A stretch of 34,417 nucleotides of DNA from a virus. The translations under genes and the position numbers were made by a program. The stretch lies in the IMG/VR virus record IMGVR_UViG_3300046694_000635, positions 1 to 34,417 of that record; one strand, written 5' to 3'. This document shows, in pieces, positions 3,435 through 7,302 of the stretch. The notes beneath the pieces were generated by a model, which saw nothing but the letters and a program-made list of their open reading frames with translations, ran no database searches and was not told the DNA's origin. Within the stretch, counting starts at the first letter, position 1; each line of letters begins with the position of its first letter.

Positions 3435-4025
3435 TTATGCCGCGTGCGCGGCTGGGGTGGCCGCTGCAGCGAGGTGGTTGATGGACTCAGTGACCTTGCT
3501 GTAGATCTCGACATCGTTGCCGTACGCGGTGAAGCACCGGGTGTGCGGGCTTTTGTTGCCGATGCTCAGGATGGTGGTGATACCTGAGCGCGATTGCGTG
3601 CGGTGTACCGCGACTTGCAGGGGGTAGTCGAAGCCCATGTCGAGGCTCAGCACGCCGCCGGTGCTTACCAGTTCGAACACGCGTTGTTTGTCGGAGACCT
3701 GGAAGCAGCCATATTCGCGGCGGGCGTGCGGGCGGGGCACCAGGTCGCTAGTGTTGCTCGCGTCGAACGGGCCATTCGCGATCTCTTCGATGAAGTCAGC
3801 CAGTTTGAGGTGAGTTTTCTTGTCGTTCTGCAGGGTCAGCGTGTGGCGTTCGCTGGCTAGCTCGACGACGAAGGTACTCTCGGTTGTACCTCGTTCGACC
3901 TCGAGACGAAACGCCAGGCATTCACGCTTGGGTGCTGTTCTCAGGATATGGTTGAAGGTCTCGGTCAGGTTGACCTGAGCATTGAGCAACTGCAGCGTGC
4001 GGTTGTCGATTTTGTACTTGATCAT
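3435..4025 (-). CDS. Hypothetical early phage protein
   Basis: A 196-residue soluble protein of unknown function. It has mixed alpha/beta character, no signal peptide or membrane segment, and a C-terminal Ala-rich tail (NHLAAAATPAAHAA). A beta-rich centre contains ESTFVVELASERHTLTL and GVLSLDMGFDYPLQVAVHR. The ATG has GGAGG eight bases upstream and overlaps the stop of the upstream 58-residue gene (ATGA). It is the second gene of the leftward early operon. I recognise it only as the kind of hypothetical protein found in Pseudomonas prophage left arms. Confidence 0.6.
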   Translation of the reverse strand: MIKYKIDNRTLQLLNAQVNLTETFNHILRTAPKRECLAFRLEVERGTTESTFVVELASERHTLTLQNDKKTHLKLADFIEEIANGPFDASNTSDLVPRPHARREYGCFQVSDKQRVFELVSTGGVLSLDMGFDYPLQVAVHRTQSRSGITTILSIGNKSPHTRCFTAYGNDVEIYSKVTESINHLAAAATPAAHAA

Positions 4026-4198
4026 GCTGCGTGCCCTCCGCCGTTCGGATCGAATTGGGTGGGGGCAGTGCGAGGTTGCTGCTTCGGTTTGGCGGTAACA
4101 AACGAGCAGCCGCTTTCGCGGGCCAAGCGGCGGATTTCGAAGATTCGGAAGGGATCAGCAGCGGCCGGGTGGACGTGCAGGGTTGCTGTGGTGTGCAT
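4022..4198 (-). CDS. Short hypothetical protein, first gene of the leftward operon
   Basis: A 58-residue product starting at the ATG at 4198, preceded by GAGG about eight bases upstream; a TTG at 4234 in the same frame lies too close to the promoter's -10 region and has no ribosome site. The protein begins MHTTATLHVHPAAADPFRIFEIRRLARES and is rich in His, Pro and Arg, with a disordered tail. It ends by overlapping the next start codon (ATGA). It is the promoter-proximal gene of the early left operon. No recognised function. Confidence 0.5.
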   Translation of the reverse strand: MHTTATLHVHPAAADPFRIFEIRRLARESGCSFVTAKPKQQPRTAPTQFDPNGGGHAA

Positions 4199-4233
4199 GG
4201 TTTTGCCTCGCTCTGTGGTGGAAGAGTGAGGCA

Positions 4234-4262
4234 AATATCATCCAGTGGTTTACGAATGTCAA
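4234..4262 (-). promoter_or_regulatory. Leftward early promoter (PL-like)
   Basis: On the minus strand a perfect TTGACA (complement of 4257-4262) is followed after exactly 17 bases by GATATT (complement of 4234-4239), a good sigma-70 promoter. It reads into the 4198-71 operon. Its -35 box overlaps the inverted repeat TCAAC-N5-GTTGA at 4259-4273, which places it under probable repressor control. Confidence 0.7.
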
Positions 4263-4294
4263 CTAACGGTTGATAATTTGTCCGTTGAGTTGAT
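4258..4294. promoter_or_regulatory. Repressor-type operator cluster at the left promoter
   Basis: A 15-base inverted repeat TCAAC-TAACG-GTTGA lies at 4259-4273, and two further half sites GTTGA follow at 4284 and 4289. The same TCAAC-N5-GTTGA form occurs between the repressor and cro genes at 6162-6176. Overlap with the leftward -35 box and with a possible rightward promoter makes this the likely left operator of the CI-like repressor. Confidence 0.65.
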
Positions 4295-4305
4295 CTTTTG
4301 ATAAT
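4278..4305 (+). promoter_or_regulatory. Possible rightward promoter for the DUF4917-like gene
   Basis: TTGTCC (4278-4283) and GATAAT (4300-4305) are separated by 16 bases and point toward the gene at 4369. The spacer contains two GTTGA half operators, so the gene may respond to the same repressor as the left operon. The -10 box is good and the -35 box is weak. Confidence 0.4.
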
Positions 4306-4368
4306 GCAGTGGCGTTTTAGTGGCGTTTTTGATATTTAGAAATATTTGGAACGGTGGAGGGGCACAGG

Positions 4369-5373
4369 ATGCCGGCTGCAGTCAACGACAGTCTTTTGAA
4401 CTGGGCAGATATTCGCGATGATGGATGGCACGATCTATTACTTGGTAACGGGTTCAGCATCAATATTCACGATGGATTTTGGTACGATAATCTAAAAGAT
4501 GTTGCTTGCCTTCCCGTGATTGGAGAGCCTCTACTCAACGAGTCGCGCGCTCTTTTTGATGCCTACAATACTACCAATTTCGAAGATGTTCTAAAGTCTA
4601 TATACCATGCTATGCAAGTTGATGATTGTTTAGGGCTTCAACAGATCGGTCCAATTAGTGATGTTTATGAAAATATTAAAAACTCTCTTGCTAGCGCGGT
4701 AAACTATGCTCATGTTCCTGAAGGTTTTAGCGCAGCTAATACTGTCAGTGATGAGCTTGCCAGATTTAACAATGTCTATACTACAAACTACGACTTAATT
4801 CCCTATTGGGGGGTAATGTCAAAGGAGACATATAGATTCAAGGATTTCTTCTGGGGTGACGCCTTCGATTCAAGTAATGCCAATGTATGGGGGCGCTGTA
4901 CGGCCATGCATTATCTGCATGGCGGGTTGCATCTTGTGGAGAATTTAGAAGGGCAAACTATTAAGCGGCGCTCGAATGGTCTAAGTTCTCTTAGGGATTT
5001 ATTTGATCTGGCGGAGCCTGATCTCTTTCCCTTGTTTATAACTGAGGGGCATTGGTCTAAGAAACTGTCAAAGATAAAAAGAAACGATTATTTGAGTTTC
5101 TGTTTTTCAAAGTTTTCCAATGGAGGCAATAGTCTGCTGGTCTTGGGGCACTCCCTCCACGCAGAATATGATCAGCACATCGTTGATGCTATAAGACGCT
5201 CGAATAGGCGGCGCGTAGCAGTGAGTGTCTGGCCAGGGCTGAATCCGATGCAGAAAATAAATTTTAAAGGTAGGCTGATTGAAGAAATGGCAGGAACGAA
5301 TATTCGTTTGTCTTTCTTCGACTCTACAACTCACCCACTGACGTCCCCGGCTATGCGTAATGTTGTAATTTAA
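4369..5373 (+). CDS. DUF4917-like protein with SIR2-like motifs, prophage cargo gene
   Basis: A 334-residue protein; the frame opens at a GTG at 4354, but GGAGGGG (4356-4362) fits the ATG at 4369. Near the N-terminus is DLLLGNGFSINIH, near residue 140 VYTTNYDLIPYWG, then MHYLHGGLHL and, close to the end, LLVLGHSLHAEYDQHIVDAI. Gly-rich LLGNGFS, TTNYD, HG and LGHSL are the order seen in SIR2-like NAD-binding folds and in the DUF4917 family; the fold assignment is inference. The gene is clearly AT-richer than its neighbours, lies alone and convergent to the repressor gene with 7 bases between the stop codons, and fits a horizontally acquired cargo gene. A role in defence or superinfection exclusion is plausible from position and fold but not shown. 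Confidence 0.7.
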   Translation: MPAAVNDSLLNWADIRDDGWHDLLLGNGFSINIHDGFWYDNLKDVACLPVIGEPLLNESRALFDAYNTTNFEDVLKSIYHAMQVDDCLGLQQIGPISDVYENIKNSLASAVNYAHVPEGFSAANTVSDELARFNNVYTTNYDLIPYWGVMSKETYRFKDFFWGDAFDSSNANVWGRCTAMHYLHGGLHLVENLEGQTIKRRSNGLSSLRDLFDLAEPDLFPLFITEGHWSKKLSKIKRNDYLSFCFSKFSNGGNSLLVLGHSLHAEYDQHIVDAIRRSNRRRVAVSVWPGLNPMQKINFKGRLIEEMAGTNIRLSFFDSTTHPLTSPAMRNVVI

Positions 5374-5380
5374 TAAAGAC

Positions 5381-6112
5381 CTATTCGGGTATAAAAGATC
5401 CTACGACTTTGCCGCATATATGAGTTTCCTCCGTAATATCAATGATTGGATATTGCGGATTTATCGGGCGGAGAAATTGGCGTCCCGCATCCTCTACCAA
5501 AATTTTGAATGTTGCCTCATTTGTTCTCGGTAGTCTGGCAATAACGCGATCACCTGTTTTCGTTTCGGCTTCAGGATCGACGAAAATTATGCAGCCGGTT
5601 GGATAGCTTCGGCCTGGTCCCGGATTAGTCATCGAGTCGCCTAAAACTTTTAATGCATAACCGTGTGAGCTGATCGCGACCGGGCACGATAACCAAGAGT
5701 CACTATCATAGTTCTCAAAGTTTGAAATCGCTTCGCACCAAGCCCCAGCCTGCACCCAAGAGATCAATGGAACCTTGCCAAAGCGTTGATTGATTTCACG
5801 GACGTTACTGGCGTCATTAGTCGTTATGTTGAGAACGTTATTATTACCAGTTTGCTCTTTCGGTAGCACACCATATTCAAGCCATTCTCGCCTGACCCCT
5901 AGCCACGAGGAGAGAGCAGACATGCTGTCTGCCTCAGCCATCGCTTCGCCATTCAGCCACTTGCTGATGGCCTGGGGCGTCTTATCAACCCCCACGCTTT
6001 TCAACTGACGATGAATATCCACCCCTCGACCTCGGCTGCGAACGCCGGCATCGTTGAGGGCTTCGTGTAGGCGCTCGCTGAAAGCTGCGCGAAGGGAATT
6101 TTTATCAACCAT
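5381..6112 (-). CDS. CI/PrtR-like self-cleaving repressor (HTH plus S24 peptidase)
   Basis: A 243-residue lysogeny repressor. Residues about 9-75 form a helix-turn-helix with TPQAISKWLNGEAM; residues about 110-240 form a LexA-type peptidase. The cleavage dipeptide Ala122-Gly123 (VQAGAW), the nucleophile Ser160 (LGDSM) and the general base Lys203 (TFKIL) are all present, so RecA-stimulated self-cleavage is expected. Binding would silence the left operon and cro, most likely through TCAAC-N5-GTTGA sites at 4259 and 6162. It is transcribed away from cro and converges with the DUF4917-like gene. The pairing with a prtN homologue recalls the PrtR/PrtN circuit of pyocins. The site upstream of the ATG is weak, as is usual for maintenance-level repressors. 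Confidence 0.93.
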   Translation of the reverse strand: MVDKNSLRAAFSERLHEALNDAGVRSRGRGVDIHRQLKSVGVDKTPQAISKWLNGEAMAEADSMSALSSWLGVRREWLEYGVLPKEQTGNNNVLNITTNDASNVREINQRFGKVPLISWVQAGAWCEAISNFENYDSDSWLSCPVAISSHGYALKVLGDSMTNPGPGRSYPTGCIIFVDPEAETKTGDRVIARLPRTNEATFKILVEDAGRQFLRPINPQYPIIDITEETHICGKVVGSFIPE

Positions 6113-6133
6113 GAGTTGAGAGTCTCACAAAGG

Positions 6134-6160
6134 TTGCGCAATAGTCAGTTGATCTATAAC
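6134..6160 (+). promoter_or_regulatory. Rightward early promoter (PR-like)
   Basis: TATAAC at 6155-6160 is a near-consensus -10 box. The best -35 candidate is TTGCGC at 6134-6139 with a short 15-base spacer. The -10 box lies in the centre of the inverted repeat GTTGAT-N7-ATCAAC (6148-6166), so repressor binding there would block it. Confidence 0.5.
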
Positions 6161-6177
6161 ATCAACCGCAAGTTGAT
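6148..6177. promoter_or_regulatory. Repressor/Cro operator region between cI and cro
   Basis: Three half sites overlap: GTTGAT (6148-6153), ATCAAC (6161-6166) and GTTGAT (6172-6177). They form a 19-base inverted repeat (6148-6166) and a 17-base one, ATCAAC-CGCAA-GTTGAT (6161-6177), that matches the operator at the left promoter. A weaker half match lies at 6138-6152. Position between divergent repressor and cro-like genes is that of OR. Confidence 0.7.
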
Positions 6178-6191
6178 AAATGGAGATTGTC

Positions 6192-6452
6192 ATGCTGGAC
6201 CCCGCAGATTTTCCGAGTGCGATTGCCTTCGCATTTGAAGCCGTCGGCGGCATCGGGGCCGCTGCGAAGGTATGCAATAGAAGCTACCAAGCGCTGAATA
6301 AATGGCGCCAGGCTTCATGCCTGCCGCGGACGGATTACACAGGTGAAACCAAATACGCCGAGCTGTTGGCGACTGCTGCGAAGAACAAAGGCAACGCATT
6401 CCAAGCCGCTTGGCTGTTGAAAGCCTCGGCTCCACAAAAAGCTGCGGCGTAG
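6192..6452 (+). CDS. Cro-like / YdaS-type regulator
   Basis: The frame has an ATG at 6180, but GGAG at 6182-6185 sits six bases before the ATG at 6192, so the product is 86 residues. It contains a helix-turn-helix-like FEAVGGIGAAAKVCNRSYQALNKWRQ followed by CLPRTDYTGETKYAELLA, the form of YdaS/Cro-type regulators of lambdoid prophages. It is the first gene of the rightward early operon and divergent from the repressor gene, sharing its operators. It should shut off repressor synthesis during lytic growth. A strong leftward terminator begins eleven bases after its stop. Confidence 0.75.
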   Translation: MLDPADFPSAIAFAFEAVGGIGAAAKVCNRSYQALNKWRQASCLPRTDYTGETKYAELLATAAKNKGNAFQAAWLLKASAPQKAAA

Positions 6453-6783
6453 CAAGAAAAAAGGCGACCCAACGGTCGCCCAGTTCCTCCCGGCACGCAC
6501 CACCACAGCGCTGTCGGGTCGCGATAAAGATAGGCGGGCACACCACATGCAACCACCTCTCTTTATCGCGCTTTTCCAAGGCTCGGAAGCCTTGGTGTTG
6601 CTGCCTTTTCCACCACAGATTGGGCAGCTGTTGCGCCAGGGGTGAGCAACGGATTGCTCGCCCTGGCACGGTGCCGGTGTCGATCCCTAAGATCTAGCCG
6701 GCGTTTGGGCCCTTTCAAGCCACGCGGCAAATGTATCACCACTGCATGTCGCGCGGCACTGGCAACTTACAAGGATTAATGCC
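6453..6783. other. Structured non-coding interval between cro-like and CII-like genes
   Basis: No convincing gene is present in these 331 bases. The interval holds the leftward terminator at 6457-6480, an 11-base inverted repeat CGCGATAAAGA / TCTTTATCGCG (6520-6530 and 6560-6570) followed by CTTTT, a perfect 8-base stem with loop CGGA (6576-6595), and a long stem GCCAGGG...GAGCAA-CGGA-TTGCTC...CCCTGGC (6635-6667). This is where lambda keeps nutR and tR1, so an early terminator/antitermination region or a small RNA is likely. A weak leftward promoter candidate lies near 6690-6720. Confidence 0.5.
6457..6480 (-). terminator. Rho-independent terminator for leftward transcription
   Basis: On the minus strand GGCGACC-GTTG-GGTCGCC forms a perfect 7-base stem followed directly by TTTTTTC (complement of 6456-6462). 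It would stop transcripts entering cro from the right. No protein gene feeds it, which suggests a leftward small RNA or a guard for the immunity region. Confidence 0.75.
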
Positions 6784-7302
6784 ATGAGCCGTATCATTCT
6801 GAGCTCTCTAGACCGGGCGCAGCGGGAAGTTCTGCCGCTCGATCTCGCGCTTTACCATGCCGCACGGGACTACCCCGGCGGCGCCGCAGCCATCGCCGCC
6901 ACCACCGGCCGGAATGCGACCACGCTGCAGCACAAGCTTTCTCCAACCCACCCTAGCCATACCGTGAATATTCAAGAGTTCGGCGAGATTCTGGAGCTGA
7001 CCAAGGATCGCCGCATCCTGGACGCAGTGCATGCCTTGGTCGGTGACACGACTTGGCAGGAGCTGGCTGAGGCGTATACCAACGATATGCCGGAGACGTT
7101 GACCACTGGAATTGCCGAGTACTTCCGACAGGTCGCGGATCTGGCGGATACCTGGGCCAAGAGCATTGGCGACGGGGTTGTTTCTGATGAGGAACTGGCC
7201 GCGATTCGCCTGCAGGTGTTTCGTGGGATTCAGGGGCTGTTGGGGTTGTTCAACCGCGCCACGTATGTCAACCAGACGACGCGGGGTGTTGATCGTGGCT
7301 GA
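6784..7302 (+). CDS. CII-like phage regulatory protein (Phage_CP76 family)
   Basis: A 172-residue regulator with LDLALYHAARDYPGGAAAIAATTGRN followed by TLQHKLSPTHPSHTVNIQEFGEI, the hallmark of the CP76/CII family found directly after cro in many Pseudomonas and P2-like phages. The N-terminal half binds DNA; the C-terminal half (about 100-160) is helical and may oligomerise. AAGGA at 6771-6775 supports the ATG at 6784. By analogy with CII it should influence the choice between lysogeny and lysis. It overlaps the start of the zinc-finger gene by eight bases. Confidence 0.85.
   Translation: MSRIILSSLDRAQREVLPLDLALYHAARDYPGGAAAIAATTGRNATTLQHKLSPTHPSHTVNIQEFGEILELTKDRRILDAVHALVGDTTWQELAEAYTNDMPETLTTGIAEYFRQVADLADTWAKSIGDGVVSDEELAAIRLQVFRGIQGLLGLFNRATYVNQTTRGVDRG

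Follow-up and report, generated by a model that had tools for sequence, protein, structure and literature searches.

A DUF4917 gene with a predicted SIR2 fold in an exchangeable, defence-rich slot beside the repressor of a prophage

Introduction

The gene at positions 4,369 to 5,373 of the viral record IMGVR_UViG_3300046694_000635 (34,417 nucleotides, hereafter the window) encodes a DUF4917 protein with a predicted SIR2 fold, and it occupies an exchangeable cassette next to the phage repressor, in a slot whose other contents are rich in defence genes. The phage is a temperate one of the Pseudomonas type, and we regard the gene with good confidence as a prophage defence gene. Our preferred reading, to which we assign a probability of roughly 0.7, is that it acts by NAD hydrolysis, as a single-gene SIR2 effector that would protect lysogens from other phages. 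The basis for this reading is computed and comprises the family, the SIR2 fold, the conserved Asn and His residues, the exchangeable cassette and the defence-rich slot.

SIR2 effectors are central in bacterial immunity, and those studied in depth comprise several domains or several genes. The slot position and the fold described here are each of a known kind; what is added here is their pairing, the extent of the slot in Pseudomonas phages and the assignment of a fold to DUF4917. The features of the region are collected in Table 1.

Table 1. Features of the repressor region of the window
Feature	Positions	Strand	Remarks
Conserved left-operon gene, phrog_15582	3435..4025	-	anchor for slot search
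Predicted leftward promoter PL, TTGACA-17-GATATT	4234..4262	-	left operator overlaps it
Weaker left operator-like site, 2 mismatches to RTCAACYNNNRGTTGAY	4237..4253	.	
Left operator, GTCAACTAACGGTTGAT, perfect match to RTCAACYNNNRGTTGAY	4258..4274	.	
Exchangeable cassette	4275..5381	.	blastn vs L011, L026, L129
Shine-Dalgarno-like GGAGGGG ahead of ATG 4369	4356..4362	+	sequence
DUF4917/PDC-S21 gene, predicted SIR2-fold enzyme, 334 aa	4369..5373	+	ATG 4369, TAA 5373
CI/LexA-type repressor, HTH + Peptidase_S24	5381..6112	-	convergent with cargo gene
Right operator-like site over repressor start, 1 mismatch	6104..6120	.	
Right operator, ATCAACCGCAAGTTGAT, perfect match to RTCAACYNNNRGTTGAY	6161..6177	.	
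Cro-like regulator	6180..6452	+	phrog_35, weak match
CII-like regulator	6784..7302	+	Phage_CP76

The gene and its family

The initial annotation had described an AT-rich reading frame at these positions, and the base composition bears this out: GC is 43.2% in the gene vs 59.2% in the window, and GC3 is 42% vs 71-78% in the primase, terminase and left-neighbour genes. In the mechanical ORF call, an in-frame GTG at 4354 precedes the ATG at 4369. At its other end, 7 bases separate the gene from the stop codon of the repressor on the opposite strand. As had also been claimed, the gene stands alone in transcription; the left operon and the repressor both run leftward, no other + strand gene lies between them, and the gene therefore needs a transcription start of its own.

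Pfam DUF4917 (PF16263) matches the protein with an E-value of 4e-44 and 151.7 bits, vs a cut-off of 28. The alignment covers positions 1-307 of the 311 in the profile, so the match is full-length and above the curated cut-off, in agreement with the family first proposed. The PADLOC profile PDC-S21 matches residues 7-329 of the 334-aa protein (E about 1e-92 to 3e-92, 307.5 bits), and phrog_30889 matches with an E-value of 3e-102. SIR2_2 (PF13289) does not match the window protein, and a homologue from the same slot in another locus (L109) scores 23.7 bits (E 5e-5) against a cut-off of 24.5. With the window protein as the query, no match was found in NCBIfam or, by phmmer, among PDB sequences.

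The suggestion that the gene might represent an undescribed system has to be given up, as PADLOC already lists the family as a single-gene defence candidate. The likeness to PDC-S21 consists of the full-length match and the one-gene arrangement, and what is added here is the phage slot and the fold. In the open literature we found no experimental test of DUF4917 or PDC-S21; DUF4917 is mentioned in a plasmid paper and PDC-S21 is unmentioned.

A tblastn search of 50,697 phage records returned no close relatives of the window protein, so the gene is rare among isolated phages. Scanning genome contigs for peptide patterns of the window protein likewise gave none, and the homologues discussed below came from the family alignment and from whole-genome family searches. 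Against a 78%-identical relative in another phage (L001), pN is 0.15 and pS is 0.77, which indicates purifying selection; the corresponding values between the DUF4917 genes of L137 and L138 are 0.19 and 0.86. Judged from the sequence, the family matches and purifying selection mark it as a genuine gene and not a chance reading frame.

Predicted SIR2 fold and active site

An AlphaFold2 model was built from 42 sequences (the window protein and viral homologues) and reached a pLDDT of 89.8 and a pTM of 0.90. The top Foldseek match for this model is 8sub, the SIR2 protein of E. coli SIR2-HerA (E 3.6e-11), and further matches include DSR2, ThsA and KomC. The VIA comparison gives a Z of 16.3 to PsSIR2 (8w9l), also the SIR2 subunit of a Nezha complex, over 281 residues at an rmsd of 5.2; KomC, SPARSA, ThsA, DSR2 and Avs5 rank next with Z of about 11-13, and human SIRT2 has about 11. 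A BFVD fold search had no match below E 0.001, and its top entry is the SIR2 deacetylase of Klebsiella phage KPN4 (E 0.07). Comparison of a predicted structure with SIR2 folds had been put forward as a check on the original suggestion, and on the strength of this model the protein almost certainly has a SIR2 fold.

The four motifs on which the suggestion was based are all present in SIR2-like order (LLLGNGFS, TTNYDL, YLHGG and LGHSL), with key residues that vary little or not at all across the 42-sequence DUF4917 alignment. The SIR2 motif residues G26, N27, G28 and S30, N140, Y141 and D142, and H184 and G185 are conserved across it. Profile comparison with PDB sequences aligns NYDL and HG to 8j4u, and residue counting in that alignment equates N140 with N168 and H184 with H227. 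It is important to note that this match, with an E-value of 0.01 and a rank below two designed proteins, is weak on its own, and the SIR2 claim rests for that reason on the fold search. In Nezha of V. cholerae, N168 and H227 are conserved NADase residues, and alanine mutants lose immunity (PMC11559045). In the modelled fold, N140 and H184 form a putative catalytic pair.

The exchangeable cassette and its contents

Loci were collected via the conserved left-operon gene, giving 80 viral loci and 43 from Pseudomonas genomes, with both flanks present in 122. The slot counts that follow are approximate, given mechanical ORF calls and some redundancy among the loci: 54 of the 122 loci hold only the repressor region (less than 1.8 kb from the left gene to CII), and 68 are occupied, by 88 ORFs that fall into about 58 clusters by sequence. 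Most of these cargo ORFs (78/88) lie on the + strand, as does the gene studied here, and their mean GC is 41.5%. That other prophages carry alternative genes in the same slot, which had been proposed as a further check, is thus borne out.

The edges of the cassette are sharp. In blastn comparisons with relatives that carry other cargo (L011, L026 and L129), a similarity of ~74-90% ends at ~4274-4286 and resumes at ~5382; the first boundary is where the left operator ends on the cassette side, and the second lies inside the stop codon of the repressor. One of these relatives, L129, has the empty site, with 35 bases between the cassette edges.

Among the PADLOC matches of all cluster representatives are Septu, Lamassu, RT_V, RT_VI and Drt5, as well as a CBASS cyclase and effector, PD-T4-2 and PDC-S20. 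Pfam adds NACHT, SIR2_2, a putative AbiC, AbiTii, KAP and GmrSD. At a threshold of E 1e-5 or better, 11 of 20 randomly sampled slot clusters match PADLOC models, among them Septu, Lamassu and AbiTii, whereas 10 control genes from elsewhere in the window gave 0 matches, and the defence role that had been suggested for the gene is accordingly probable. Many alternative defence-like genes between constant phage genes, which is the pattern of a prophage defence hotspot, are therefore what the slot contains; some of its contents are without a defence match. The 9 sampled clusters without a PADLOC match are candidate defence genes in their own right, for example L038 (1118 aa), L022 (854 aa) and L014 (356 aa).

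DUF4917 itself recurs in the slot. The relatives are 78% (L001), 47% (L137, the same gene as L109) and 48% (L138 and L179) identical to the window protein, and together with it they form one clade with support of 100/99. Directly upstream of DUF4917, three of these loci carry a 210-aa gene of unassigned family (L137:4669-5301, L138:5215-5844 and L179:5035-5664). It is absent from the window and from L001, is found only with the L137/L138/L179 subfamily, and its model has a pLDDT of 35; it is a possible partner of DUF4917.

Operators, promoters and repressor types

Perfect matches to RTCAACYNNNRGTTGAY are found only at 4258 and 6161, and by their position these two sites are the left and right operators. 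The initial annotation had placed the promoter of the cargo gene over repressor half sites. The half sites do prove to be real operators; the overlap with a cargo promoter is at chance level, as 4 promoter-like sites were found in all vs 3.0 expected from shuffles. Those facing rightward, at 4249-4277 and 4278-4305, are weak. Regulation of the cargo gene by the repressor was therefore not adopted, and the proposed tuning by lysogeny is reduced to a possibility: expression of the gene may depend on the lysogenic state.

Just past the point where PL is predicted to start, a strong hairpin (-17 kcal/mol, z -5.2) lies at 4202-4235 on the - strand. Its stretch CTCTGTGG is found in 105 of 123 loci, relatives have frequently lost pairs of the outer stem, and the sequence is apparently better conserved than the pairing. 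Any role in antitermination would be a guess, and an Rfam search over 3900-6700 gave no match. In L015, L019, L021 and other loci, a second repressor type (215 aa, ~34% identity) occupies the same place and goes with a different-looking, TTAACC-type operator; immunity type thus seems to vary independently of cargo.

Comparison with known systems

The SIR2 subunit of SIR2-HerA (Nezha) is the closest solved fold, with the catalytic Asn and His aligned, whereas the present protein is encoded by a single gene and shares about 11-17% identity with it. Membership in SIR2-HerA was rejected, as no HerA-type or other helicase adjoins the gene and its neighbours are the repressor and left-operon genes. 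A toxin-antitoxin reading was also set aside, the cassette being without a partner gene. DSR2, ThsA, KomC, Avs5 and SPARSA have the SIR2 domain fold in common with the window protein. These effectors act with extra sensor domains or partner proteins, whereas none is visible for the gene described here.

In lambdoid phages, the cI-N interval is a recognised mosaic hotspot in which lambda carries rexAB (PMC8585504), and RexABpp of the Pseudomonas putida prophage P1 sits downstream of its repressor (PMC12894663). Lambda rexAB, BstA and RexABpp are likewise defence cargo beside a cI repressor (PMC8585504; PMC12894663), and rexAB lies in the same interval, from the left control region to cI, as the present gene. 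However, rexAB, bstA and rexABpp are downstream of the repressor and in its orientation, whereas the DUF4917 gene is convergent with it and needs its own promoter, and their protein families are unrelated to DUF4917. Defence hotspots have been described in P2, P4, Vibrio and Bacillus prophages, and one of them adjoins cI (PMC9122126). Those of P2/P4 and Vibrio K139-like phages are, like the slot studied here, high-turnover loci of 1-5 kb between conserved phage genes that hold alternative defence systems, but they concern a different phage group and a different slot; PMC9122126 names Vibrio and Bacillus, not the Pseudomonas slot.

Proposed mechanism and alternative explanations

Under the preferred reading, the SIR2-fold DUF4917 protein of a lysogen would sense a component of another phage that infects the cell. 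Neither a sensor domain nor a partner gene is visible in the window phage, and a helical insertion at residues about 57-130 may serve as the sensor because a separate sensor domain is lacking. Sensing would trigger the cleavage of NAD+, and growth of the infected cell would then stop before progeny phage are formed.

Elsewhere, several members of the family have defence genes as neighbours, which supports this reading. In E. coli, where 36 of 5426 genomes have a gene of this kind, it is flanked in one region by retron Eco8 and an ABC-3C/restriction endonuclease set, and the same arrangement is found on a Klebsiella plasmid. The Methylobacter gene adjoins type I restriction genes, and on a Vibrio plasmid DUF4917 lies near the Hhe defence gene; the family is also seen adjoining arsenic resistance genes. 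In Pseudomonas, 321 of 398 genomes carry a DUF4917 gene, vs 13 of 194 in the wider order. Across the 12 genomes examined, the chromosomal copy shares 32-36% identity with the window protein (examples are L222:7866-8945 and L224:7959-8978), its site is loosely conserved and without an obvious defence island, and an iron-alcohol dehydrogenase is nearby in 7. The sampled chromosomal copies form a supported clade of their own, apart from the phage clade. We tentatively consider, at well under even odds, that a single DUF4917 gene suffices for immunity, its SIR2 domain sensing infection with neither a partner nor a sensor domain, and that the family would exist both as a near-universal chromosomal immune gene of Pseudomonas and as a separate phage version for superinfection exclusion.

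The near-fixed chromosomal copy is also the main reason against equating DUF4917 with defence, and some members of the family may have another role. Homologues with a housekeeping function had been named at the outset as evidence that would speak against defence; the near-fixed Pseudomonas member leaves such a non-defence role possible for the family. Applied to the phage gene, it would mean an NAD-dependent physiological enzyme (a deacylase, or one for ADP-ribosyl transfer or NAD-derived signalling) that alters the metabolism of the lysogen's host and excludes no phage. The high frequency in Pseudomonas against a patchy distribution in the wider order, the separate chromosomal clade, and the fact that the SIR2 fold includes deacylases such as SIRT2 are all consistent with this. 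We nevertheless think it unlikely, since the top structural matches are defence NADases and not deacylases, the slot of the phage copy is otherwise largely defence-like, and the phage clade is separate from the chromosomal one.

The protein could also defend without hydrolysis, with its SIR2 fold binding NAD or a nucleotide signal while the effect comes from other chemistry or from blocking a phage component. In two homologues (L004 and L142) the catalytic-position Asn is replaced by Cys, so NADase activity need not apply to every DUF4917 member, and many other residues are invariant without an assigned role (F71, E72, D159, K199 and K232). But the window protein keeps both Asn and His, and in the family alignment the catalytic-position His is invariant and the Asn at least 90% conserved, which makes this explanation quite improbable for the present gene. 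Finally, its atypical composition and replaceable position would suit a neutral passenger, an acquired AT-rich gene without present function in the phage, but this is very improbable for a gene that is intact, is under purifying selection in both comparisons above, and belongs to a family that several distinct phages retain in this slot.

Significance

The slot offers a practical site for prospecting, as it holds ~58 families in one phage group, roughly half of which, judged from the sample, are unmatched in the defence library. If the preferred reading of NAD hydrolysis by a single-gene effector is true, the 334-aa protein would be the simplest version of a SIR2 defence to analyse. The near-universal relative in Pseudomonas makes it testable whether the family is a core immune gene or an enzyme of another role.
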